Shown: positions 12,299-27,513, numbered from the stretch's first letter. The stretch is 64,000 nt of DNA from Elusimicrobiota bacterium (GCA_026388095.1 JAPLKL010000043.1:1-64000), one strand, 5' to 3'. The notes: a model not told the origin generated them from the sequence alone. Translations and numbers: made by a program.

Positions 12299-14251
12299 AT
12301 GATCCTCCTGCTCCTGCAGTTCTCGAAGCTGGCCGGAACCGGCGCCGTCGCGCTCGGCAGCTTCATCCTTTTCTGCTGGCTCGCGAATCACAACGCGCTG
12401 CTCAAGCTCCCCGCAGGCTTGCTCGCCGTGCACCCGGCTACGGCGATCCTGTTCATATTGGCGGGGGTTTCGCTGCGCCTTTCCGGTCTGACCTCTGTCC
12501 GGTGGCGGCGCGCCGGGCAGCTGTGCGCAGGCTTGCTGGTCTTCATCATCATGGCCGTGCCGGTCAGCTGGTTCGAACGGTTCTTCCGCGGGCCGGGGAG
12601 CGCCATGATGCAGTTGGATCCCCTGGCCTCCCTGAGCCTGCTCGGGGCTGGATTGGCATTGATCGCCCTGGACGTCGAGTGGCCGCGCGGGTTCTGGCCG
12701 GCCCAGTACTTGTGCATCGCGGGCCTGTCTTTAGGGTTGTTGACGCTGGTCGGATACGGCTACGGGATCAAGCCCTTGCTGCACCAAGCCCTTTCCTTCG
12801 ACGTGATGCAGCTCAACATCGCCCTGACCATCGCCATCCTGAATCTCGGCATACTGTGCGTCCGGCCCGACCGGGGGCTCATGGCCCTGGCCATCAGCCA
12901 GGGCCCCGGCGGCTCGACCGTGCGGGTGCTGCTGCCGGCGATGATCATCATACCCACCGGCCTCGCGGCGATCCGGTTGGCCGCGGCGAACACCGGCCTG
13001 TACTACAGCGTCTCGGGCTCCACGACCTTCGGCCTGGCCAACCTGCTGGTCTTCGCCATCCTGATCTGGTGGAATGCCGCCTCGCTGCAGCGGATCAGCG
13101 CCGAGCAGAATCGGGCCAAGCAGCAGGCCGAGGCGCTCCTGTTCTCCATCAGCGACGGCATCCTGATGCTCGACGAGAAGGGCCTCATCCAGCTCGCCAA
13201 CCGCCGGCTGCGCGAGTTCCTGGACTTGAGCCCGGCCCTGAACATCGAAGGCAAGAGCCTGCGCGAGGTCATGCCTGACTCGCGCCTGCGCGAGGCGGTG
13301 CTCCAGGCCTGCGCCGAGCCTCGTCCGAACGTCTTCCGGGAAATCGACCTTTCGACGGAGGAGAGGCGCCGCTACCTGCGCATCAGCGCGGTGCCGGTCG
13401 TGGCCCCGGCGACCGGCGCGACGCTGGGGGTGATCACGGCCGTGCGCGACGCCACTTTCGAGAAGGACCTCGACAAGATGAAGGAGGACTTCCTCCACGA
13501 CATCACCCATGACCTGCGCAATCCCGTCGGCTCGGCCATGGGCTTCGTGGACGTGCTCCTCAAGGGCACGGTCGGCGAGCTCAACCCCGAGCAGAAATCG
13601 ATGCTGGCCTCCGTCAGACGCTCGGCCAGCCGCCTGATGGGCATGATCAACAACATCCTGGACATCGCCAAGATGGATTCGGGCCGCATCCAGATGGACC
13701 TGCGCCCCGCTTCGCTGACCGCCATCGCCGGCCGCGCGGTCGCCGAGATGGCGCCCCTGGCCCGGCCCAAGAACATCAAGCTGGCTCTGGAGACCGTCGA
13801 AGACCATGTCGTCACGGCCGATGCGGAGCTCTTGCTGCGGGTGGTGGTCAACCTGGTGGGCAACGCCATCAAGTTCACGCCCGAGGCGGGGGTGGTGACG
13901 GTGCGCGTCACGGACAAGGGGCCGGCGGCGGAGCTCGAGGTCGCCGACACGGGCGAAGGCATTCCGCTCGAGGACCAGACGCGCATATTCCAGAAATTCG
14001 AGCAGGTGGCGCGGCAGAGGCGCGGGGGCACGGGGCTGGGTCTGGCCATAGCCAAGTTCTTTGTGGAGGCGCACCGCGGCCGCATCTGGGTGGATTCGCA
14101 GGAGGGCAAGGGTTCGCGCTTCACCTTCACCATCCCCAAGGGTCTGGCGCACGACAAAGACGGGGCCGTGGTCTTGGGACCTGCGCCTGCGCCGCCGCCG
14201 GGCCAGGCCAAGAAGAGCCCTCAGGGCACGGAGCAGGCCAAGCCCTGTTGA
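12299..14251 (+). CDS. Membrane sensor histidine kinase with PAS domain
   Basis: About 650 aa. Residues 1-260 hold roughly eight hydrophobic segments (MASE-like sensor region, unnamed). A PAS domain follows (SISDGILMLDEKGLIQLANR). HisKA has FLHDITHDLRNPVGSAMGFV, and HATPase has NLVGNAIKFT, VADTGEGI and GGTGLGLAIAKFFVEAHRG. The C-terminal tail is Pro/Ala-rich. No partner regulator is adjacent. The start could be the TTG 6 nt upstream. The last 31 nt overlap the convergent activase gene. Confidence 0.88.
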   Translation: MILLLLQFSKLAGTGAVALGSFILFCWLANHNALLKLPAGLLAVHPATAILFILAGVSLRLSGLTSVRWRRAGQLCAGLLVFIIMAVPVSWFERFFRGPGSAMMQLDPLASLSLLGAGLALIALDVEWPRGFWPAQYLCIAGLSLGLLTLVGYGYGIKPLLHQALSFDVMQLNIALTIAILNLGILCVRPDRGLMALAISQGPGGSTVRVLLPAMIIIPTGLAAIRLAAANTGLYYSVSGSTTFGLANLLVFAILIWWNAASLQRISAEQNRAKQQAEALLFSISDGILMLDEKGLIQLANRRLREFLDLSPALNIEGKSLREVMPDSRLREAVLQACAEPRPNVFREIDLSTEERRRYLRISAVPVVAPATGATLGVITAVRDATFEKDLDKMKEDFLHDITHDLRNPVGSAMGFVDVLLKGTVGELNPEQKSMLASVRRSASRLMGMINNILDIAKMDSGRIQMDLRPASLTAIAGRAVAEMAPLARPKNIKLALETVEDHVVTADAELLLRVVVNLVGNAIKFTPEAGVVTVRVTDKGPAAELEVADTGEGIPLEDQTRIFQKFEQVARQRRGGTGLGLAIAKFFVEAHRGRIWVDSQEGKGSRFTFTIPKGLAHDKDGAVVLGPAPAPPPGQAKKSPQGTEQAKPC

Positions 14252-15064
14252 GCGAAGGTGCGGGCCGCCGCCTCGGTCCTTCCGCCTAGAGGGTCCGCGT
14301 CCGGCAGGCAGGCGGGCGCGCGGCCGAGCCCCTCCCACTTGCCCAGCCCCAGGGGATGGTACGGGATCAGTTCGATCCTCCCGAGCTTGAGCTCATGGAG
14401 CAGCCCGGCCAGGGCCGAAAGGTTCTCCGGGGTGTCCGAGATGCCCGGCACCACGGTCAGACGGGGCACGAGTCTTCCTGGACAAAGGCCGGCGAGAAAC
14501 CGGAAATTGTCCAGGATCAGCCGGTTGTCTTGCCCGGTGAGCCGGCGATGCCGCTCCGGGTCCAAGACCTTCAGATCGAACAGAAAAAGATCCACGGCCG
14601 GCTCCAGGGCCGCTAGGGTCCCGGGCTGGGCCTGCCCGCAGGTCTCCACGGCGCAGTGTATGCCGCGGCCGCGGCAGCCGGCCAGCAATTCCCCCAGGAA
14701 TACCGCCTGGGAAAAAGGCTCTCCTCCCGAGAAAGTGACGCCGCCTCCGGAGTTGCGGTAGAAGTCCCGGTCGCGCTCGATCTCGTCGAGCAGTTCCTCC
14801 GCCGCGACTTCGCGGCCGACCAGGCCCAGGGCGCCGCTCGGGCAGGCCTCCACCGCGGCCAGATCCGGGGATGCCGCGGCGCAGCGGCCGCAGGCGACGC
14901 AGAGCCCGGGCCTGCGCATGAGCTCGGGCCGGGCTTGCTGGGATTCGGGGTTGCAGCACCAGGCGCAGCTCAGCGGGCAGCCCTTGAGGAAGACCAAGGA
15001 CCGTATGCCCGGCCCGTTCGTGGACCGCGTAGCGCTGCAGGTCGAAGATCCGGCCGCGGCTCAC
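14221..15064 (-). CDS. Glycyl-radical enzyme activase (radical SAM), with apparent +1 frameshift
   Basis: Makes the glycyl radical on the enzyme encoded upstream. Translation probably starts at the GTG that overlaps the enzyme's stop codon (GTGA). The first frame gives RIFDLQRYAVH, then the match to the consensus HDGPGIRSLVFLKGC continues only in another frame, with one extra T (plus strand) at about 15017-15018. After that come the radical-SAM CPLSCAWCCNPE cluster motif, a ferredoxin-like CVACGRC...C insert typical of activases of non-PFL enzymes, and GGGVTFSGGEP. The single-base shift is either a sequence error or a real inactivating change. The 3' end overlaps the convergent kinase gene by 31 nt. 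Confidence 0.85.
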
Positions 15065-17505
15065 AGCCCGTGCTCGGTGCGCCAGATGACCTGGTCCTGC
15101 AGGGCCCGGCTCATCTCCACCCAGTAGGCGGAGAAGCCGGCCACGCGCACGACCAGGTCCCGGTAGGCCTCGGGCCGCTTCTGGGCGTCGCGCAGCATGC
15201 GCGAGTCCACCACGTTGAACTGCACGTGGAAGCCCGGGCCTTCGAAGTAGGTCTTGATGAAGGCCAGCAGGTTGCGCGAGCCGTTGTCTCCGCGCAGGGC
15301 CGAGGGATGGAATTTGAGGTTGAGCAGGCCGCCCCGGATCAAGGTATGGTCCACCTTGGAGCTGGAGCGCGCGACCGCGGTCGGGCCCTGGACGTCGGTC
15401 CCGGGGAAAGGCGAGGTGACCCCGTCGGCCAGGGGCTCGCCCGCGCGCCGGCCGTCCGGAAACGCCCCGCAGGCTTTGCCGAAGGGCACCGGCGTGGAGA
15501 TGGCGAGCATGGAGGGATCGTAAGGCTCGCCCAGGTAGTTGTCCTGGCCGGGGACCCAGCGGCAGTACTCGGCGAAGAGGTCGAGGAATATGGAATCGGC
15601 CCGGTCGTCGTCGTTGCCCCACTTGGGCGCGGCCAGGGCGCGCTTGCGCAGGGCTTCGTGCCCCTTCCAGTCCGCGGCGAGAGCGGTCTTGAGCTCTCCG
15701 AGGCCGCAGGCCTTGTCCTCGAAGCAGAGCTTGCGGATGGCGGCGAAGGAGTTGGCCACGTTGACCAACCCGGAGGAGAGCGTGGTGGGGGTGCGGTTGA
15801 GCCGCGCGCCGCCGTCGTCCATGCACAGGCCTCGGCCGAGGCAGTCCTGGACGAACACGGAGCAGAAGACCAAGGGCACGGTGTCCCGGTGCGCGGCCAT
15901 CGCGTAGTTCCAGTATTGCTGCCAGCGCCGCACCGAGACGCGCATCTTGTCGAGGTAGGAGTCGCGCAGGTCGGCGTAGCTCTTGGGGGAGCGGGGCGCG
16001 AAGAGGCGCGCGCCGGTCACGGGGTCCGCGCCGTCGTTGAGGGTGAGGTCGAGGAGCTTGCCGTGGTTGACGAAGCCGGCCTGCACCACCCCGTAGGACA
16101 TGCCCTGCAGGACCGGCTCGGTGCAGCCGCCCATGGCCGCGTGCTTGCGCACGGTCGCGACGGGGAGCCCGCTGGTCCGGGTCTCGTGGCGGATATAGGT
16201 CTTGAGGTTGAAGAATGCGGGGTAGCCGACGCCGGTCTTGACGCATGCGGCGGCTTTGAGCAGGAAGCGCTCGGAGAGGGAGTCGTCGTGCCACACCGAG
16301 AGCGTGGGCTGGGTCATCTGCATGCGGATCTGGGCGTCCAGGATGGCCAAGGACAGCTCATTGTCGGCCGGCTTGCCGTCCGCGTCCAGGCCGCCCAGGA
16401 TGAGGTTCTGGTAGAGGTTGCCGTGGCCCAGGCCCTGCCAGCTGAGGCTGGCGAGGTATTCGATCTGGGTCATCTTGACGAAGAGCTCCTCGAAGAGCTC
16501 CACGGCTTGGGCGTAGCCGGCGCCTCGGTAATACGGCAAAAGGGTCTGGTCCAGGCGGCCCGGAGAATAGCCCAGGTGCGAGCCTTCCAGATGGCCCAGG
16601 AGATAGGTGAACCAGAAGGACTGCACCGCCTCCTGGAGATCGCGCGGCGGCAGGGCCGGGACGCGGCGGCAAGTCTCGGCCAGCCGCCCCAGCCCCAGCC
16701 GGGCCGCCTCGTCGGCGTAGTGGCCCGCGAAGGCCAGAGCCCCTTGAAGGACCCGCTTGGAGGCGCGCCAGAACTGCAATTTCCCGGTCTCCTGCATGCG
16801 GCCGGGCCGCCAGGAGCTCAGGCGTTCATCGATCTCCTCGATCGTCCTGAGGTAGCCTTTGGCCAGCGCAGTCTCGAAATCGAGGATCAGGCGGCCTTCA
16901 GGGCAGGGCTCGTGGGGGGCCGTGTAGAGGCCGACCGCCCAGCCTTGCTCGATGAAGCCCGCGTCCGGGAAATGGGCCTTCCAGAGCCTCTCTCCCGCGG
17001 ACATGAAGTCCTTGTGCTCCCAATACGAGCAGGACTCGCGCAGGGACTCGTAGTCTTCCGGCGAGATGAGGAACTTGCCCGAGAAGACCCGGCAGCCTTC
17101 CTTCTCGGCCTGGGCCAGAGCCCCGGCTATGCCTCCGCCCTGGCCCTGATCGACGTGCTTCTGCTGGGCGTCCTGTTCCTGGCGGCGCATCTCTTTGAGG
17201 AAGGGACCAGCCGCGTAGTTGGCGTAGGGGATGGCGCCGCGGATGAAGCGGGTCTTGTTGGCCGCGATCTCGTCCTGCGCATGGATGACCGGGGTCAGCC
17301 GCTCCAGGGCATAGGCGTGGTCTTCGGCCCGGCGCTCCAGGACCGGCAGGCCGTCGGTCCGGCGGTGCGACTCGGTGAGCAGGCGGATGTATTCGACGTC
17401 CACGCGCAAAGGCGCTTCGAGATAGCGCTTCTTGAGCAGCGCGGTGCGCGGGGTGGAGGGGCTGGCCGCGACCTCCCTGGGGCAGTATCCGGTCTCCGCT
17501 ACCAT
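15061..17505 (-). CDS. Glycyl-radical enzyme (PFL-like family, substrate unassigned)
   Basis: 814 aa, full family length. The radical-bearing glycine is Gly790 in VVRVAGFSAYWVEMS and the catalytic cysteine is Cys461 in MGGCTEPVLQG. A single Cys followed by x-Glu (GCTEP) is the pattern of dehydratase/decarboxylase/lyase members. Pyruvate formate-lyase has two adjacent cysteines, so PFL proper is unlikely. The enzyme is oxygen-sensitive and implies anaerobic metabolism. ATG overlaps the stop of the EF-hand gene (ATGGTAG) and its own stop overlaps the activase GTG, so all three are coupled. No microcompartment genes are visible. Substrate cannot be assigned by eye. Confidence 0.9.
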   Translation of the reverse strand: MVAETGYCPREVAASPSTPRTALLKKRYLEAPLRVDVEYIRLLTESHRRTDGLPVLERRAEDHAYALERLTPVIHAQDEIAANKTRFIRGAIPYANYAAGPFLKEMRRQEQDAQQKHVDQGQGGGIAGALAQAEKEGCRVFSGKFLISPEDYESLRESCSYWEHKDFMSAGERLWKAHFPDAGFIEQGWAVGLYTAPHEPCPEGRLILDFETALAKGYLRTIEEIDERLSSWRPGRMQETGKLQFWRASKRVLQGALAFAGHYADEAARLGLGRLAETCRRVPALPPRDLQEAVQSFWFTYLLGHLEGSHLGYSPGRLDQTLLPYYRGAGYAQAVELFEELFVKMTQIEYLASLSWQGLGHGNLYQNLILGGLDADGKPADNELSLAILDAQIRMQMTQPTLSVWHDDSLSERFLLKAAACVKTGVGYPAFFNLKTYIRHETRTSGLPVATVRKHAAMGGCTEPVLQGMSYGVVQAGFVNHGKLLDLTLNDGADPVTGARLFAPRSPKSYADLRDSYLDKMRVSVRRWQQYWNYAMAAHRDTVPLVFCSVFVQDCLGRGLCMDDGGARLNRTPTTLSSGLVNVANSFAAIRKLCFEDKACGLGELKTALAADWKGHEALRKRALAAPKWGNDDDRADSIFLDLFAEYCRWVPGQDNYLGEPYDPSMLAISTPVPFGKACGAFPDGRRAGEPLADGVTSPFPGTDVQGPTAVARSSSKVDHTLIRGGLLNLKFHPSALRGDNGSRNLLAFIKTYFEGPGFHVQFNVVDSRMLRDAQKRPEAYRDLVVRVAGFSAYWVEMSRALQDQVIWRTEHGL

Positions 17506-17804: not shown

Positions 17805-18935
17805 CTACTGAGCCGTCGCTGCGGCTTGTCCCTTCGTCGCCGCGGCTTTGGGGATCGTGAAGATGAAGCGCGCCCCTTTGCCGGGCGTGCTTTCCGCACA
17901 GATTGTTCCCTGATGCGCCTCCAGGATCTCCCTGCAGATGGAGAGGCCTAGGCCCGTTCCCTTCGCGGCATGCGCTTTCCCCGGCTGGCTGAATTTCTGG
18001 AAAAGCCTCGGTATATCTTCCGGCGCGACGCCCGGACCGGTATCCGCCACGCTGCAGCGGATGAGATCCTGGTCTTCCTCCGCCCGGATCTCGATCTGTC
18101 CTGTCCTGGTGAATTTCAGCGCGTTATGGATGAGGTTCGTGAGAACCCTCGCGATCTGATCGCGGTCGGCGAATATTTCGACGTCATGATCAGGCGCGAT
18201 CGCCTTGAAGGCCAGGCCCTTGCTCTCGATCTCCCGGCGGAAGAATTGTCCGATCTCCTGGACCAGGGAATTCAAGCTGAAATTCGCGCGTCGGAAAGAA
18301 TATTTTTGTTTTTCCATTTTCGCCAGATCCAATAGATCCTCGGTGGTTCTGACGAGCCGGCGGATGGCGTTAAGGGTGATTTGGAGGATCTCTTTCTGCT
18401 CTGCGGCGTCCACGACCATGCCCTCGTGGAGCATCCAGATGGAGGTCTGCAGGGTGGTCAGCGGATTCTTCAACTCGTGGCTGACCACATGGACGAAATG
18501 ATCCCGCATCAGCAGGAGTTTTTTTCTTTCCATGGCGTAATTCAAGGCTCGCAGCAGGGAGCGTTGATCCACCTGCCCTTTGATCAGATAGTCTTGGGCG
18601 CCTTGGTGGATGGCTTCCATGGCGTGTTGTTCATCCAGGATGCTGCCGGTCAGCAATACGATCGGGGCATCGGGCTTTTGTTCGGACAAAGCGTTGAAAA
18701 CCTCCAATCCGGACGCGTCCGGGAGGTGCAAGTCGCTCAGGATGACGTCGTAAGTCTCCGTTCTTAGGAATTCGAGTCCTGCAGCCATGGTGCCGGCGTG
18801 GGTCAGGCGGAATGTCGGTGAATCCCGGAGCGCGCGCTCCACCCATTTCGCGTCCACCTCGTCGTCTTCGATGAGCAATATCTTCACCTGGCTTTGGCTT
18901 GGGGGATTCTTTTTAGGCTCGGAATTCGGCTGCAT
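17805..18935 (-). CDS. Receiver-histidine kinase hybrid (REC-HisKA-HATPase)
   Basis: 376 aa, soluble. REC domain about residues 18-135 (ILLIEDDEVDAKWVERAL, phospho-Asp in VILSDLHLPDASG, Lys in DYLIKG). HisKA follows with VHVVSHELKNPLTTLQTSI and HATPase with NLIHNALKFT, VADTGPGV and KGTGLGLSICREILEAHQG. An N-terminal receiver lets the kinase be controlled by an upstream phosphodonor, here probably the Cache kinase of the same operon. Last gene of the binding-protein/two-component operon; about 30 bp follow the preceding gene. Confidence 0.9.
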   Translation of the reverse strand: MQPNSEPKKNPPSQSQVKILLIEDDEVDAKWVERALRDSPTFRLTHAGTMAAGLEFLRTETYDVILSDLHLPDASGLEVFNALSEQKPDAPIVLLTGSILDEQHAMEAIHQGAQDYLIKGQVDQRSLLRALNYAMERKKLLLMRDHFVHVVSHELKNPLTTLQTSIWMLHEGMVVDAAEQKEILQITLNAIRRLVRTTEDLLDLAKMEKQKYSFRRANFSLNSLVQEIGQFFRREIESKGLAFKAIAPDHDVEIFADRDQIARVLTNLIHNALKFTRTGQIEIRAEEDQDLIRCSVADTGPGVAPEDIPRLFQKFSQPGKAHAAKGTGLGLSICREILEAHQGTICAESTPGKGARFIFTIPKAAATKGQAAATAQ

Positions 18936-18965
18936 GATAGGCTCCTGGCGTCTGGTCCCTCTATT

Positions 18966-19373
18966 CTAATACGGTAATTCGCTCGTCTTCCAATAGATCG
19001 AGATCGTCCTCATGACCGAGATGTAGAGCTTGGGGTCCACGGGTTTGACCATGAAGCCGGCGATCCCCAGGTCGAACGCGCGGGCCCGGTCCGTTTCCTC
19101 CCGCGAGGTCGTGAGGGCGACGACCGGGACTTTTCTCAAGTCCAGGTCGCCTTTCACCTTGGCCAGGAATTCCAGGCCGTCCATCACGGGCATCCTGAGA
19201 TCCAGAAGGACCAGTCCGGGCTTGGGATGGGTCTTAAGCCACTGCAGGGCTTCCTCGCCGTTGCGGCAGGTGGCGACCGGGTTCTTCACATTGAGCTCTT
19301 TGATGGCGCGGCTGACCGCCATGACGTCCACCTCGTCGTCGTCCACAAGCAGGATCGTTTGATTCTCAATCAT
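18966..19373 (-). CDS. Single-domain response regulator
   Basis: 135 aa, receiver domain only: ILLVDDDEVDVMAVSRAIKE, phospho-Asp in LVLLDLRMPVMDG, switch Thr in VVALTTS, Lys in MVKPVDP. This is the Rcp1/CheY-like type found beside phytochrome and hybrid kinases, acting as phospho-shuttle rather than DNA binder. Start at 19373 has AAAGGAGAAAGCC before it. An ATG at 19400 overlapping the upstream stop (ATGA) would add nine residues. It sits between two kinases and could carry phosphate from one to the next. Confidence 0.9.
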   Translation of the reverse strand: MIENQTILLVDDDEVDVMAVSRAIKELNVKNPVATCRNGEEALQWLKTHPKPGLVLLDLRMPVMDGLEFLAKVKGDLDLRKVPVVALTTSREETDRARAFDLGIAGFMVKPVDPKLYISVMRTISIYWKTSELPY

Positions 19374-19396
19374 GGCTTTCTCCTTTTGCGTTGCGC

Positions 19397-21277
19397 TCAT
19401 TTCGGAAGCGTGAAGAAAAACCTGCTTCCGACCCCCACCTTTGATTCCACCCAGACCTTCCCATGATGGAACGTCACCGCTTTCTGCACCAGCGCCAGGC
19501 CGATGCCCGTGCTGTCCGTCTTGCCGGGCGGGGCCACGGTGTTGAATATTTTGAATATTTTATCGAAATATCTCTCCGCGATGCCCGGGCCGTCGTCTTC
19601 CACGCAAAACTGCCAATGGCTGTTCTTGTCCTCGCCGCTGATCTTGATCTCGCCCGTTTCCTTGCCCATATGCTTGACGGCGTTGTCCAGGAGGTTTTGA
19701 AAGACCTGCCTGACGCGGGTCGGGGAGCAGCTGACCTGCGGGAGGGGCTCTCCCCGGATGATGCGGATGGACGCGGGCGGATCCAGGGCTGAGAGGACCT
19801 CGTCCACCAGGAGGTTCAGGTCCGTCAGGGCGTATTCCTCCTGCAGCCTGTGGAGCCGGGAATACTGCAAGATCCCATTGATCAGATTATCCATCCTGAC
19901 CGCGCGCTGCCTTATCAGCTGCAATTGATGCCTGCCCTCATCGTCCAATCTGTCCGCATAGTCGGTCTCGATCCATGTGGAGAGGGAGGAGATGCCGCGC
20001 AAAGGCGCTTTCAAGTCATGGGAGACGACATAGGCGAAATCCTCAAGCCCCTGATTGGACGCTTCCAGATCGGCTTTTAGGATCTCCAGAGCCTTCCTGG
20101 AGGCCGTTTGGGTCTTCAGGTTCTCCGTCATCCGGTCGAAAGCCCGGGACAGGTCGCCGATCTCATTGTCCAATGGGAGCCCCACTTTGAAATCAAGATC
20201 ACCGCGGCCGATGATTTCGCTCCCTTTTTGGAGGGCCATTATGGGCTCGGTGACCATCCGGGACACGGCCGCCGCGATCCAGGCCACGCCCAAGGCCATG
20301 AGCGCGCAGAAAAGCCATGTGATCCGTCTCAAACGCCGGACCGGAGCGAAAATGTCCTCGACATCCGCCTTGACGACCATGCCCCAGCGCAACTGCGGGA
20401 TATACAGCCAGCGGGCAAAGACGGCTTTTCCGCGGTAATCCCTCGCGACCCCGGCGCCCGTTTGCCCGTTGATGGCCCTCTGCGCCGGGACGGCGTCAAG
20501 AGAGCCGATCCGCACCCGCAAGGTCTGCGCGGCATCCGGCCGCAGGCGCAGCGGAGTGGTGGAAACGACCTCGTCTCCGGCTTGTTTGACGAAGAAGAAC
20601 TCGCCGGTGCCGGGAAGTCCGGCATAATTCCGGGCGAGCTGATACAGGGTTTCCGGCTTGATCCGGACCGCCAGGACGCCGAAGAGCTTCTCCTTGCCAA
20701 AGACCGGAGCGGCGACGAACAAGGCGGGACCTTGGGCGGGCGGGTAGAAGTCGAAATCCGAGATCACCGGGCTCAGATGCGCATGCACGGAGCCGACCGC
20801 ATCGGCCAGGATGGTGTTTTTGAGGGCCGGGCCGCGGATCGCTTCTCCCAAATCAGCGCCGCGGCGCATGGAAAAGAAAACGGTTCCCTGGGCTGAGATC
20901 AAAAGCATGTCATCCAAGGATTCATGGATGTTGAAGTATTTTTGAAAAACTCCTCTGTATTGCGATTCCAGGGCCGCGTATTCTTTGCCGCGGATGCCGG
21001 CTTTCTCAAAAGGCGCGCTGAGCTTCTCAAACGCCGTCAGGGTCACGGGATCGGAGCCTCGTTCAGCGACGAAGTCCATGAGGGAGTCCGTCGTTGTATT
21101 CACCAGCGTCTGCCTGGAGTCGCTTATGGCGAGGAGCTTGTTCTGGATGTGCTCCTGCAGGGATCGGGAAAAGAAATGATCGGTGATGAGGGTCAGGCCC
21201 AGGAGGGGCGCCAGCGCGGCCAGGAAAAAACGCCAGAATATGCTTACGAACAGGCTCGATCTCCTGAAAAAACTCAT
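19397..21277 (-). CDS. Membrane histidine kinase with extracytoplasmic Cache-like sensor
   Basis: About 626 aa. One N-terminal helix (VSIFWRFFLAALAPLLGLTL), a periplasmic region of about 270 residues with dCache-like features (GVLAVRIKPETLYQLARNYA, LRWGMVVKADVEDIF), a second helix, HAMP (PIMALQKGSEIIGRGDLDFK), a coiled linker, HisKA with FAYVVSHDLKAPLRGISSL, and HATPase with NLLDNAVKH, VEDDGPGI and STGIGLALVQKAVTFHHGKV. Start ATG overlaps the stop of the binding-protein gene (ATGA), so sensor and binding protein are made together. Confidence 0.9.
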   Translation of the reverse strand: MSFFRRSSLFVSIFWRFFLAALAPLLGLTLITDHFFSRSLQEHIQNKLLAISDSRQTLVNTTTDSLMDFVAERGSDPVTLTAFEKLSAPFEKAGIRGKEYAALESQYRGVFQKYFNIHESLDDMLLISAQGTVFFSMRRGADLGEAIRGPALKNTILADAVGSVHAHLSPVISDFDFYPPAQGPALFVAAPVFGKEKLFGVLAVRIKPETLYQLARNYAGLPGTGEFFFVKQAGDEVVSTTPLRLRPDAAQTLRVRIGSLDAVPAQRAINGQTGAGVARDYRGKAVFARWLYIPQLRWGMVVKADVEDIFAPVRRLRRITWLFCALMALGVAWIAAAVSRMVTEPIMALQKGSEIIGRGDLDFKVGLPLDNEIGDLSRAFDRMTENLKTQTASRKALEILKADLEASNQGLEDFAYVVSHDLKAPLRGISSLSTWIETDYADRLDDEGRHQLQLIRQRAVRMDNLINGILQYSRLHRLQEEYALTDLNLLVDEVLSALDPPASIRIIRGEPLPQVSCSPTRVRQVFQNLLDNAVKHMGKETGEIKISGEDKNSHWQFCVEDDGPGIAERYFDKIFKIFNTVAPPGKTDSTGIGLALVQKAVTFHHGKVWVESKVGVGSRFFFTLPK

Positions 21278-22563
21278 GCTCCGTTTCCAGGGGCGGCGGC
21301 CCAATGGCCGTTCCATCTTCGATAGAGCCGGTCGAGCAAGCCTTCCCAATAGGCCTTATCACGGAAATCAGGGTAGGGAACCGGGATGACGGAGCCTTTT
21401 GAAGTCCAGAGGACATCGAAAGCCCCCGCGTCATTGAGCCTGCCGATACGGGTGGTCTTGCGCGCGTGAAGATTGTCGTCGATGCTGATGACGCCCTCGG
21501 GGGCAGGCATGGTGATGAGCTTCAAGTGGCCCAGCAGCTCTTGAACATCATCGGCATTCCCGGATTCGTTGACGGCCTGGCTCCACAGCCGGACTCCGAT
21601 GTAAGCGGCCTCCATGGGATCCGTGACCCTGCGATTTTTTCCATATTCTTTCTTGAATTTATCAATAAAGTCTGCATTAAGCGGAGTGTCGATGCTTTCA
21701 AAATAGTTCCAGCAGGCGTAAGTGCCCGCCAGATGCTGCTTGATGAAGTGAGCGGCTTCTTGGGGACGAGCGGCCTGGAAGTGTTCCTGAATGGAGCTGA
21801 TCCCATTCTCATCCAGGCTCAGGGAGAATATCGCGATCTTCGATGAGGGGAGTTCGGCATCGTGCAAAGCCTCAAAAAGGGAAATATTGCTGTCGCCGTT
21901 GACGGTGTTTAAAACAACGTCCGGCTTCGCCTTTTTGATCGCTTCCGCTATCCCCGCGAAATCCGTCCCGCCCAGCAGGACATAATCCTCGCCGACGACT
22001 TGGCCCCCGATGTAGCGCAGCACGTCTTTGGCGATGGCGTTGGCCATTCTGGGAAAAACATAATCCGAGCCGACCAGGAAGAATCTCTTGCCCAAATGCT
22101 CCCGGGCCCAGACCAAAGCCGGAATAAGCTGCTGATTGGGCGCCGCCCCCAGGTAGACGATGTTCGGGGATTGCTCCAGCCCTTCGCTCTGGACGGGATA
22201 TAAGAGGAGGGAATGGTATTTCTCCACGATCGGCTTGACCGCCTTGCGGCTGGCCGAGGTCCAGCAGCCGAAAATGACCGCGACATGCTCCTGCGTGATC
22301 AGCCGCTCGGCTTCTCTTTGAAAAACATCGGGGTCGGATCGGCCGTCCGCAACGACCGGCTCGAGCTTCCGGCCCAGCACCCCGCCGCTTTTGTTGACCT
22401 CATCGACGGCCAAGAGGACGGCATCGGCCACGGGCTTCTCGCTGGCGGCCATCGTGCCGGAGAGGGAATGGAGGATGCCGACCTTGATGGGAGGATGGAA
22501 TGCGGCCTTGCACGCGAGCTGGGCCCCCGCGGCCGCGATCAACAGCAACGTCTTAAACGTCAT
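21274..22563 (-). CDS. Urea/amide-type periplasmic binding protein, lipoprotein, without transporter
   Basis: About 429 aa, lipoprotein signal (AAAGAQLACKA). Type I periplasmic binding fold of the UrtA/FmdD/AmiC group: IKVGILHSLSGTMAASEKPV, DEVNKSGGVLGRKLEPVVAD, FGCWTSASRKAVKPI, GTYACWNYFESIDTPLNADF. In transporters this partner feeds permease and ATPase subunits; here the next genes are two kinases and a receiver. It may therefore act as a ligand-sensing subunit like AmiC. Start at 22563 lies 12 nt from TATGAT (22576-22581 complement); a second ATG is at 22572. Confidence 0.85.
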   Translation of the reverse strand: MTFKTLLLIAAAGAQLACKAAFHPPIKVGILHSLSGTMAASEKPVADAVLLAVDEVNKSGGVLGRKLEPVVADGRSDPDVFQREAERLITQEHVAVIFGCWTSASRKAVKPIVEKYHSLLLYPVQSEGLEQSPNIVYLGAAPNQQLIPALVWAREHLGKRFFLVGSDYVFPRMANAIAKDVLRYIGGQVVGEDYVLLGGTDFAGIAEAIKKAKPDVVLNTVNGDSNISLFEALHDAELPSSKIAIFSLSLDENGISSIQEHFQAARPQEAAHFIKQHLAGTYACWNYFESIDTPLNADFIDKFKKEYGKNRRVTDPMEAAYIGVRLWSQAVNESGNADDVQELLGHLKLITMPAPEGVISIDDNLHARKTTRIGRLNDAGAFDVLWTSKGSVIPVPYPDFRDKAYWEGLLDRLYRRWNGHWAAAPGNGA

Positions 22564-24276: not shown

Positions 24277-27200
24277 CTACGACTTCTCGGCCAGCGCGCG
24301 GCGGACGCTCAGCAGCAGCGTTTCCTTGGCGACCGGCTTGCGCAGATAACCGGCAGCCCCCAGCCGCAAGGCTTGGGATTGCAGCTCCGGGCTGGCTTGA
24401 GCGGTCAGGAAGATGACCGGCGTGTCGATGCCCTTGAGACTCTTGATCTCGAGGAGCTTCAGGCCGTCGAGGTTGGGCATGTTGATGTCGGAAAGGATCA
24501 GGTCGAAGCGCCTGACGGCGAGCTGCATGAGCGCGTCGGCCCCGTCTCCGGCCGGCGTGACGCGGTGACCGCCGTTGGCGAGGACGCGCTGGACCCAGGC
24601 GAGGGTGGCCGGATCGTCCTCGACTACCAGGATCTCCGATTCCGGTTGGGCCTGGGCGGCCGGCGTCTCTGATTCCGGACCCTCATGAGGCTGCTCGGCA
24701 TCTTCCATGAGGACCTGCCGGACCACATCCTTGACCGCGAAGAGGCCGGCGCGGACCTTGGTCATGGCGTGGTCGCTGATGAGGTAGTCGCCGCGCTGCC
24801 GGGCGAAGTCCCGGATCTTGGTGACGGGCGCCCCTTGGCGGACCATCTCGGAGATCTCCGGGTAGAAGGCGACGATCTCATAGACGCCTTCCCGCCCCAG
24901 ATAGCCGGTCTGGGCGCACCGGGGGCAGCCCTTGGGGTGCGCCACCCGCTCCGGGATATCCTTGGTGAAGGCGGCCAGCATCTCGATCTCCTCCGGGGAG
25001 GGCGGGGACAGCTCCTTGCAGTGCGGGCAGACGAGCTTGATGAGCTTCTGGGCGATCACGGCCAGGATGCTGTCGGCCATGGAACCCCGGCTTATGCCCA
25101 GGCGTTCCAGACGGAAGATGGCCTTGGTGGCGCTGGTGGTGTGCACCGAGCTCAGGGTCAGGTGCCCCGTGCTGGAGAAATCGATCGCCATCTTGGCGGA
25201 GAAGGCGTCGCGGACCTCGCCCAGGAAGAGGATGTCCGGGTCCTGGCGCACCGAGGATTTCAGCAGGGCCTCGAAGTCCAGTCCGGCCTTCTCGTCGACC
25301 TGCTGCTGGTTGGCCGCGGGGATGCGGTACTCCACCGGGTCCTCGACGGAGATGAGGCTGCGCGTCAGGCAATCGATGTGCTGCAGGAGGCTGTAGATCG
25401 TGGTGGTCTTGCCCGAGCCGGTGGTGCCGGCGACGAGGAGCAGCCCGTGCTGGCGCCGGGCGAACTCCAGCATGTGCGCGACCTGGGTCGCCGCCATGCC
25501 CAGCTCCTCCAAGGACTTGGGCTTGGCCCAGGGCTCCAGCAGCCGCATGACCACGCTTTCTCCCTGGGGAGTGGAGGTGGTGGCCAGGCGCACGATGAAG
25601 GAGCGGCCGGCGATGGTGGTCTGCAGGGTCCCGTCCTGGGGCTTGCGCCGTTCGGCGACGTCCATCCTCCCCAGGGCCTTGAGCCGGCTGACCAGCATCT
25701 GCCCCGAGTCGCGGCTGAGGGCGTAGACCTCCCGGAGGTCCCCGTCGACGCGGAAGCGCACCAGCGTGCTCGACTCCTTGGGCTCGATGTGGATGTCGCT
25801 GGCCCGGTCCGCTACCGCGCTCTCTAGGATGTTGTGGGCCATGTCGCTGACGGAGACCTTGTTGCTGTCCGTGCGCAGGAGCTCCGTCACGGCCTCGCGG
25901 TCCGGCTGCTTGAGCAGCCGCAGGATGTTCGCCGGGTCGGTCACCAAGGGCCGGCGCGGGTCACCCAGTTCGGGATAGCGCTTGAGGATGTCGAAGAGCT
26001 CGGCCTGCAGGGGATTGCTCACCACGAAGGCGTTGCGCCCCGGTTCCTTCTCGATGACTATGACCTGATGTTCGCGGCAGAAGGGGAGCGGCAGGGCGCC
26101 GAGCTGGACGGAATTGGGATTGATATGCGGAAGATGCTCCAAGGACAGGAACTCCGAGGCCAGGCGCGCCATCTGCGCGGCGCTCAGGCCCAGTTCCGCG
26201 GCCAGAGCGTAGATGTCGCGGGACGCGCCCTGAGCGACGCGGTCCCGGGCTTCGGCCGGGGCCCCGCTCTGCCGGCAGACGAAGGCGAGGAAGCGCTTGA
26301 AGTCGTCGCCGCGGCGGGCCGGGAAAGAGACGGTTTCCCGGCGCAGGCGTTGCCAGCGGCTGCCGGTGGCGAGGTGCTTGCGCACGGCAGCCAGCAGGGT
26401 CTCCCGCCCCACGGGCTTGGCGATGTGCTCGACGGCTCCGGCCGCGAGGGCGGCGGCGCGGTCTTTCTCCTGGTCCAAGGCCGTCAGGAAGATGACCGGG
26501 ACCACGGCGAGCTCCCGGTCGGCCTGCAGTTTGGCGCACATGCCGTAGCCGTCGAGGCCGGGCATCATGACGTCGCTGAGGATCAGGTCCGGCTTGAGGA
26601 TCTTCGCTTGCGCCAGGCCCGCCTGCCCGTCGCCCGCGACGAGCACCTTGAAGCCGGAGTGAGCCAGCCAACTGTCGATGAGCAGCAGGAGGCTGGGGTC
26701 GTCTTCGACGACCAGGATGACCTGCGCCCGGCCGTCGTCCTTTCCGGCAGCGGAGCCCGTCTGACCGTCAGGGACGGCGGGTCCTGGGCCGCCGGCGGGG
26801 ACGGGGACGCGGTCCAGGCATTCGGCCCATCGCCGGAGGAGCGCCGCGATGCCTGGCGCGTCCTGATCCTTGGCCGCCTGCTCCAGGTCGCGGCCGATGC
26901 GGCTGATCGCCGCGAATCCGTAACTGGCGCCGGCCCCGATCAGGCGGTGTCCGCAGTCCGCCAGCTTGGCATGATCGGCGCGGCTCAGCGCCGCCGTCAT
27001 GGATTCGATATCCCGGCGCTGCAGGGAGATGAACGCCGGCAGCAAGTCCGCCAATCCGGGGTCGAGGGAGGCGGGGCCGCCCGGGCTGCCGGCGTCCGCG
27101 GCCAGGGGAGGGCGGGCTTCGCCTGCGCTGGAGACCGCGGCCAGCAGCTGCTTCTTGCTGAAGGGCTTGCGCAGAAAGGCGGTGCACCCGGCCGCCAGGC

Positions 27201-27513
27201 AGCGCTGGGCTTCATCAGCCGCGGTCCCGGCGGTCAGGCCGATGATGGGCAGGGGCCGGGCGGCGCCGCGCTCCTTCTCCCGTTGACGGATCTGGGCCAC
27301 CGCGGCGGGACCGTCCAGCACGGGCATACGCATGTCCATGAGGACCAAGTCGTATTGTCCGGAGGAGAAACGCGCGACGGCATCGCCGCCGTCCGCCGCC
27401 ACGTCGATCTGATGCCCGGCCCGAGCCAGGCAGTCTCGCATCAGGAGGGCGATGGAAGGGTCGTCCTCCGCGACGAGGACGCGCAGAGGGGGCCGCGCTG
27501 GGGAGGCTTCCAC
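24277..27513 (-). CDS. Five-domain fusion: REC-Hpt-REC-PilB/GspE ATPase-REC
   Basis: 1078 aa, GTG start. Domains in order: receiver 1 (VLVAEDDPS, phospho-Asp60 in LMDMRMP); Hpt about 150-250 (His189 in GHRLIGAGASYGF); receiver 2 (ILVVEDDPS, Asp314 in LSDVMMPGLDG); GspE/PilB N-domain about 405-535 (LPFCREHQVIVIEKEPG, VVSNPLQAELFDILKRYPEL); secretion ATPase about 540-930 with Walker A AGTTGSGKTTT (Lys702), Walker B DILFLGEVRD, His box LTLSSVHTTSA and two CxxC zinc pairs; receiver 3 (EILVVEDDP, Asp1009). The ATPase motifs look intact except GEVRD for GEIRD. Phosphorelay control of a pilus or secretion motor is inferred. TAGAAT lies 6 nt before GTG. Confidence 0.93.
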   Translation of the reverse strand: MEASPARPPLRVLVAEDDPSIALLMRDCLARAGHQIDVAADGGDAVARFSSGQYDLVLMDMRMPVLDGPAAVAQIRQREKERGAARPLPIIGLTAGTAADEAQRCLAAGCTAFLRKPFSKKQLLAAVSSAGEARPPLAADAGSPGGPASLDPGLADLLPAFISLQRRDIESMTAALSRADHAKLADCGHRLIGAGASYGFAAISRIGRDLEQAAKDQDAPGIAALLRRWAECLDRVPVPAGGPGPAVPDGQTGSAAGKDDGRAQVILVVEDDPSLLLLIDSWLAHSGFKVLVAGDGQAGLAQAKILKPDLILSDVMMPGLDGYGMCAKLQADRELAVVPVIFLTALDQEKDRAAALAAGAVEHIAKPVGRETLLAAVRKHLATGSRWQRLRRETVSFPARRGDDFKRFLAFVCRQSGAPAEARDRVAQGASRDIYALAAELGLSAAQMARLASEFLSLEHLPHINPNSVQLGALPLPFCREHQVIVIEKEPGRNAFVVSNPLQAELFDILKRYPELGDPRRPLVTDPANILRLLKQPDREAVTELLRTDSNKVSVSDMAHNILESAVADRASDIHIEPKESSTLVRFRVDGDLREVYALSRDSGQMLVSRLKALGRMDVAERRKPQDGTLQTTIAGRSFIVRLATTSTPQGESVVMRLLEPWAKPKSLEELGMAATQVAHMLEFARRQHGLLLVAGTTGSGKTTTIYSLLQHIDCLTRSLISVEDPVEYRIPAANQQQVDEKAGLDFEALLKSSVRQDPDILFLGEVRDAFSAKMAIDFSSTGHLTLSSVHTTSATKAIFRLERLGISRGSMADSILAVIAQKLIKLVCPHCKELSPPSPEEIEMLAAFTKDIPERVAHPKGCPRCAQTGYLGREGVYEIVAFYPEISEMVRQGAPVTKIRDFARQRGDYLISDHAMTKVRAGLFAVKDVVRQVLMEDAEQPHEGPESETPAAQAQPESEILVVEDDPATLAWVQRVLANGGHRVTPAGDGADALMQLAVRRFDLILSDINMPNLDGLKLLEIKSLKGIDTPVIFLTAQASPELQSQALRLGAAGYLRKPVAKETLLLSVRRALAEKS

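Follow-up and report, generated by a model that had tools for sequence, protein, structure and literature searches.

A PilB/GspE-class motor ATPase fused to receiver and Hpt domains in Elusimicrobiota as a putative terminal regulator of a phosphorelay

In an Elusimicrobiota MAG (4.6 Mb in 79 contigs), a single reading frame joins a PilB/GspE-like motor ATPase to three receivers (REC) and an Hpt domain, and we consider it rather probable that a multi-step His-Asp-His-Asp phosphorelay ends on this motor, which would serve as its terminal response regulator. The wiring of the motor to the relay is well supported; the direction of control and the filament that would be driven are what we infer. 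The gene lies within the 64,000 nucleotides of DNA that were analyzed (the window), and its features are distributed as follows.

24277..27513, minus strand: whole gene, REC-Hpt-REC-MshEN-T2SSE-REC fusion, stop included (1078 aa, GTG start)
27133..27480, minus strand: REC1 (residues 12-127, phospho-acceptor Asp60), by Pfam; similar to the last receiver of hybrid kinases
26806..27045, minus strand: Hpt (residues 157-236, His189), a four-helix bundle, by Pfam and AlphaFold2
26719..26805, minus strand: linker between Hpt and REC2, the in-frame fusion junction; shorter in the congener
26380..26718, minus strand: REC2 (residues 266-378, Asp314), whose last helix (370-394) extends towards MshEN, by Pfam and AlphaFold2
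25906..26295, minus strand: divergent MshEN/GspE N-domain (residues 407-536), lacking the 24-residue c-di-GMP motif, by Pfam and motif scan
24718..25854, minus strand: T2SSE ATPase core of the PilB/GspE class (residues 554-932), by Pfam and motifs
24304..24633, minus strand: REC3 (residues 961-1070, Asp1009), by Pfam

An earlier note on this DNA had described one 1078-aa frame containing REC, Hpt, REC, an N-domain with ATPase, and REC, and had numbered D60, H189, D314, K702, D1009 and two CxxC pairs. The Pfam search bore out this frame, which we place on the minus strand (the note gave none), and every residue number proved correct. The four profiles that the note had named were all found above their curated cut-offs, namely Response_reg three times (1.5e-78 overall), Hpt at residues 157-236 (3.1e-8), T2SSE (PF00437) at residues 554-932 (2.2e-106; 356 bits vs a cut-off of 24.9) and, as a weak match, MshEN at residues 461-536 (9.7e-7). 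The protein qualifies as a member of the T2SSE superfamily both by this score and by its core motifs, comprising Walker A (K702), Walker B (E766), the Asp box, the His box (H791) and the CxxC pairs 829/832 and 863/866. All receivers retain the acceptor Asp, the acidic pair, the T/S and the K residues intact, and the REC-Hpt-REC part, with its acceptor His, thus carries the residues expected of a phosphorelay. Coding potential was strong across the 24277-27513 frame. The AlphaFold2 model (27-row alignment, mean pLDDT 84.7) displayed the three receivers as alpha/beta folds and the Hpt as a bundle of four helices (152-235), the second of which bears His189, whereas confidence was low at 134-149, 239-260 and 941-955, which are inter-domain linkers. 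The final helix of REC2 runs unbroken from 370 to 394 towards the MshEN domain in this monomer model, in which the overall pTM was 0.49, so that the relative placement of the domains is not readable from it.

The same uninterrupted domain order was found in a congener (G006) at 69% identity, and five further congeners that were searched had no match. Between the window protein and its G006 counterpart, identity amounted to 61% in REC1, 50% in Hpt, 70% in REC2, 68% in MshEN, 78% in T2SSE and 77% in REC3, and dN was below dS for each domain by NG86, a method that gives approximate values in GC-rich DNA. The unbroken order in the congener, together with dN<dS in all domains, argues that the frame is neither a chance one nor an assembly join. 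Although the corresponding genes do occur as separate neighbors in related genera, as an assembly or sequencing artefact joining adjacent genes would require, the independent congener genome has the same fusion with another linker length, and because the linker lengths differ, the two assemblies do not reproduce one common error; we therefore hold such an artefact to be very improbable.

The earlier note had pointed to other genomes as a place to look for the same architecture, and the core REC-MshEN-T2SSE-REC was indeed recovered in 21 of 341 Elusimicrobiota genomes, as 22 loci spread through 11 of 100 genera. Outside this phylum, 18 genomes reached via other matches indicated Desulfobacterota, a phylum in which a match at E<=1e-140 was obtained in 14 of 395 genomes, 12 of them belonging to the ATPase clade described below. 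Nitrospirota contributed four REC-fused motors with partial architecture (L228-L231), while no matches at E<=1e-140 were obtained in Myxococcota (284 genomes) or Acidobacteriota (297), an absence that says little since these searches ran without a positive control. Genes in the relatives' loci were predicted with a simple caller and annotated with local HMMs, Pfam being applied to a sample.

In a tree of the ATPase core (quick search), the 22 Elusimicrobiota and 12 Desulfobacterota sequences formed one clade with an SH-aLRT of 100 and a long stem of 1.72 changes per column. The architecture throughout these 34 loci is REC-MshEN-T2SSE-REC or close to it; L199, for example, lacks the N-terminal REC and L155 the C-terminal REC. 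The window protein belongs to this family by its ATPase core, which lies in the clade, and by its linked Hpt. Topologies uniting all REC-fused T2SSE ATPases in a single clade (AU p 0.42), or the 34-member family with Nitrospirota L228 and L229 (AU p 0.72), were not rejected.

The unfused relatives show what the fusion joins. In the sister genera two genes are present, encoding REC-Hpt and REC-MshEN-T2SSE-REC, and the ATG of the ATPase gene overlaps the REC-Hpt stop (..CCATGAGC.. in L036), an overlap that falls at the Hpt/REC2 junction of the window protein; further families of the class have, in place of REC-Hpt, a gene for a lone Hpt of ~100 aa. Counting fused, upstream, divergent and downstream neighbors, an Hpt or REC-Hpt is fused or adjacent to the motor in 30 of the 33 assessable loci, that is, 19 of 21 in Elusimicrobiota and 11 of 12 in Desulfobacterota, the latter including L218, where the Hpt is a weaker one and lies downstream. 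The assessable loci where Hpt was not visible are L148 and L155 in Elusimicrobiota and L221 in Desulfobacterota. An overlap of 4 or 8 nt between the Hpt gene and the ATPase start was observed in 20 of 26 unfused same-strand cases. Since the whole source genome holds only five Hpt domains, one of them in the fusion, this neighborhood is not attributable to chance. A hybrid kinase, mostly HK-REC-REC, lies near the ATPase in ~14 loci, and the two kinases checked by Pfam have PAS domains. Of the 12 Desulfobacterota loci, 8 (L198, L199, L212, L213, L214, L216, L217 and L220) have a prepilin gene within the operon or next to it; no prepilin motif occurs in the window. Pfam confirmed the N_methyl motif of the prepilin in L212, and kinase, Hpt, ATPase and prepilin together in one locus. 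The reading of the window gene as a one-off fusion was ruled out by this operon survey across Elusimicrobiota and Desulfobacterota.

At L148:6217-7506, a second, truncated REC-MshEN-T2SSE copy is located near the full ATPase, two prepilin genes adjoin the full copy and no Hpt was seen. At L142:7116-9761 (G037:C13), a TAA breaks the ATPase gene between MshEN and the core; the Hpt gene is unbroken, and the same genome has a full copy (L140).

The two fused proteins, those of the window and of G006, are sisters in the tree and group with the genera having split REC-Hpt genes, and for this reason the fusion is most simply taken as derived. The most economical reading of these sequences would accordingly be that the fusion marks the final state of a conserved operon, REC-Hpt having been joined in frame to the motor in the window's genus. 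According to the earlier note, a split into separate genes in close relatives would have told against its proposal; the split does occur in other genera, yet in the only congener carrying the gene it is unsplit, and because the split state is a tightly coupled conserved operon, the functional claim is strengthened rather than refuted.

The phosphorelay residues are widely conserved. The Hpt His is invariant in 19 of 19 Elusimicrobiota sequences, and the Asp of the C-terminal REC is kept in all 20 Elusimicrobiota sequences in which it is readable. The Asp of the N-terminal REC is kept in 20 of 22 and was lost in G145 and G146, indicating that this receiver is not essential everywhere. Across the alignment of the 22 loci, Walker A/B, the His box and the zinc cysteines are likewise kept. 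In contrast, the tandem RLGxx(L/V/I)... 24-residue motif through which MshEN domains bind c-di-GMP (PMC5013675) was absent, in its published relaxed form, from all 34 clade members, whereas three other T2SSE ATPases that were scanned have one copy each; the MshEN domain of one genus (g9) has lost its N-terminal half. The absence of the motif alongside retained phospho-acceptors suggests that the input of this motor may have been swapped from c-di-GMP to phosphate. A separate Desulfobacterota protein, MshEN-T2SSE-REC at L223:6737-8956, lies beside CheW/CheA-like genes; its c-di-GMP-type motif is intact, and it may combine both inputs.

Extending this reading to the whole group, we place at even chances the proposal that the pilus-type motor class of Elusimicrobiota and Desulfobacterota, possibly with Nitrospirota, acts as the terminal regulator of a dedicated multi-step phosphorelay and has given up c-di-GMP sensing in favor of phosphate, with the window gene as its condensed, fused form.

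The provenance of REC1 bears on how the relay might run. Against a model built from the final receivers of the linked kinases, REC1 reached 105 bits, compared with ~65 bits on the REC2 and REC3 models and 45 bits on that of the first kinase receiver, and its best matches outside its own set were the last receivers of linked hybrid kinases. An HK-REC-REC-Hpt kinase encoded elsewhere in the source genome also fits the last-receiver model (118 bits), so that these scores establish only the class of REC1, that of Hpt-feeding receivers; descent from the operon's own hybrid kinase is possible. The earlier note had spoken of a motor carrying its own phosphorelay, which holds insofar as a PilB/GspE-class motor is joined to relay domains with intact residues, but not for the kinase, which the protein lacks and which must act in trans, a part often taken in relatives by a neighboring hybrid kinase. 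No kinase partner of the fusion could be assigned in the source genome or in the window. Kinases encoded near it at 17805-18935 and 19397-21277 are possible partners, without support from the relatives. They lie in a minus-strand region of the window (17805-22563) encoding a Peripla_BP_5 protein, a Cache-HAMP kinase, a lone REC and a REC-kinase, which looks like a solute-sensing two-component set; this set as the kinase source for the fusion is possible but unsupported. Elsewhere in the window (14221-17505, minus strand), the gene for a large enzyme, whose C-terminal motif is of the RVAGFSAY type, has that of a cysteine-rich partner downstream, and by eye the two resemble a glycyl radical enzyme with its activase.

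In the unfused layout, we propose that phosphate would pass from the HK-REC-REC hybrid kinase to the small Hpt protein, encoded by the gene overlapping the motor gene, and from there to one or both of the receivers flanking the motor in REC-MshEN-T2SSE-REC. In the fused form, a kinase in trans would phosphorylate D60 of REC1, from which phosphate would move to the tethered Hpt (H189) and then to D314 of REC2, possibly also to D1009 of REC3 at the C-terminus. This order, ending on D314 and/or D1009, is the likely one because REC1 is of the Hpt-feeding receiver class. Through its continuous helix, REC2 would be coupled to the MshEN-type domain, the c-di-GMP sensor of other motors, and the phosphorylation state would set whether the hexamer engages or drives the inner-membrane platform to build a pilus-type filament. 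Both the gating, whether of the ATPase or of its docking, and this output are put forward as predictions.

The phosphorylation state could alternatively set only localization or partner choice, that is, which ATPase occupies a shared platform, and not turnover. The source genome (G000; L159, L161-L174) contains 20 T2SSE matches over the cut-off and ten T2SSF matches, several of the latter being two per protein, counts that come from domain searches; most of its ATPases consequently lack a dedicated platform, in agreement with the neighborhoods examined. Such a scarcity of platform proteins fits a control of partner choice, as does FimX, which is needed for polar PilB localization without a demonstrable direct effect on the ATPase rate in vitro (PMC5595344). 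The predicted continuous helix from REC2 to MshEN instead suggests a direct conformational link, though in a monomer model, and we consider control of localization only to be possible, at well below even chances. Within the same genome we also observed two more REC-fused motors, a REC-T2SSE (L163) beside REC and kinase genes and a MshEN-T2SSE-REC (L159) adjacent to genes for a REC and a kinase-like protein of 1063 aa, as well as a group of bacterial microcompartment shell-like genes that ends with a PilT-like ATPase gene (L171, G000:C79:36000-52000; by eye, from translations).

The assignment of the motor to a known machine was also addressed. The window protein scored 386.7 bits on the GspE equivalog TIGR02533 and 345.3 bits on the PilB equivalog TIGR02538, far under the NCBIfam cut-offs of 630.25 and 675.65, and the TfpB cut-off was likewise not reached. 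Its ATPase core is ~33-37% identical to solved GspE, PilB and PilF structures, with V. vulnificus GspE as the best Foldseek match. GspE being the best match in both comparisons, the motor might serve type II-like secretion or DNA uptake under the same phosphorelay control. PilB and PilF structures fit the core equally well, both equivalog scores lie far below their cut-offs, and beside clade members prepilin genes were noticed but no T2SS genes, a weak argument since the prepilin motif cannot separate pilins from pseudopilins; taken together, a secretion or uptake role seems improbable.

The sub-threshold scores and the long stem of the clade also mean that it could have left filament assembly. 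Receivers and Hpt would then not gate a working motor: the former motor would have become the hub of a signalling pathway, its ATPase acting as a hexameric scaffold or as a sink for phosphate, with outputs elsewhere. This would accord with the shortage of dedicated platforms and with the window itself, where no pilus genes stand beside the fusion; Myxococcus PilB is moreover reported to act as a signalling protein (PMC5544727). Against it, the catalytic motifs and zinc cysteines are kept family-wide and prepilin genes accompany most of the Desulfobacterota operons, which makes a pure hub unlikely. The prepilin neighbors in Desulfobacterota favor, as the putative output of the motor, a pilus-type filament.

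Switching of pilus motors is known mainly via c-di-GMP and separate adaptor proteins. A motor with its own receivers and a linked Hpt would let a two-component phosphorelay act straight on a mechanical output, with neither transcription nor a second messenger in between, and the conserved relay genes neighboring it in relatives suggest that cells can control the motor directly by phosphate transfer. The gene fusion provides natural evidence that Hpt and motor cooperate, and the family supplies small defined parts (kinase, Hpt, receiver-motor) for asking in vitro if a hexameric pilus ATPase is gated by phosphorylation. The literature covered, which left out most subscription papers and bioRxiv, yielded no account of a REC-bearing T2SSE motor with a linked Hpt as its phosphate donor.

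With the PilB/GspE/PilF extension ATPases the window protein shares the T2SSE core, Walker A/B, the Asp and His boxes, the zinc CxxC pairs and a GspE/MshEN-type N-domain, but it differs from them in its REC and Hpt domains, its separate clade, its scores below the GspE, PilB and TfpB cut-offs and its missing c-di-GMP motif. The MshE-type c-di-GMP-gated motors similarly fuse a regulatory N-domain to the motor, and MshEN is associated with REC in some proteins (PMC5013675); here, in contrast, the 24-residue motif is lacking in 34 of 34 members and half of the domain is deleted in one subclade. Direct contact with a signalling protein regulates PilB1 in Synechocystis, through the receiver protein PixE (PATAN-REC; PMC7690835), and PilB in Pseudomonas, through FimX (PMC5595344); the regulator is a separate protein in both, whereas the receivers described here reside inside the motor and would be fed by Hpt. 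The other REC-fused T2SSE ATPases (Nitrospirota L228-L231, Desulfobacterota L222 and L223, and L159 and L163 of the source genome) also join REC to a motor, and in Nitrospirota L228 and L229 genes for HK-REC-REC and Hpt adjoin it, but these proteins have one REC each and fall outside the 34-member clade. The relay itself resembles phosphorelays of the BarA/ArcB/TorS type in combining HK-REC-REC, Hpt and a terminal REC, and REC1 is like the last receiver of such kinases; Sln1-Ypd1-Ssk1 is a further hybrid-kinase phosphorelay of comparable type. What sets the present system apart from these phosphorelays is its putative terminal output, which is a motor ATPase and not a DNA-binding regulator or a kinase.
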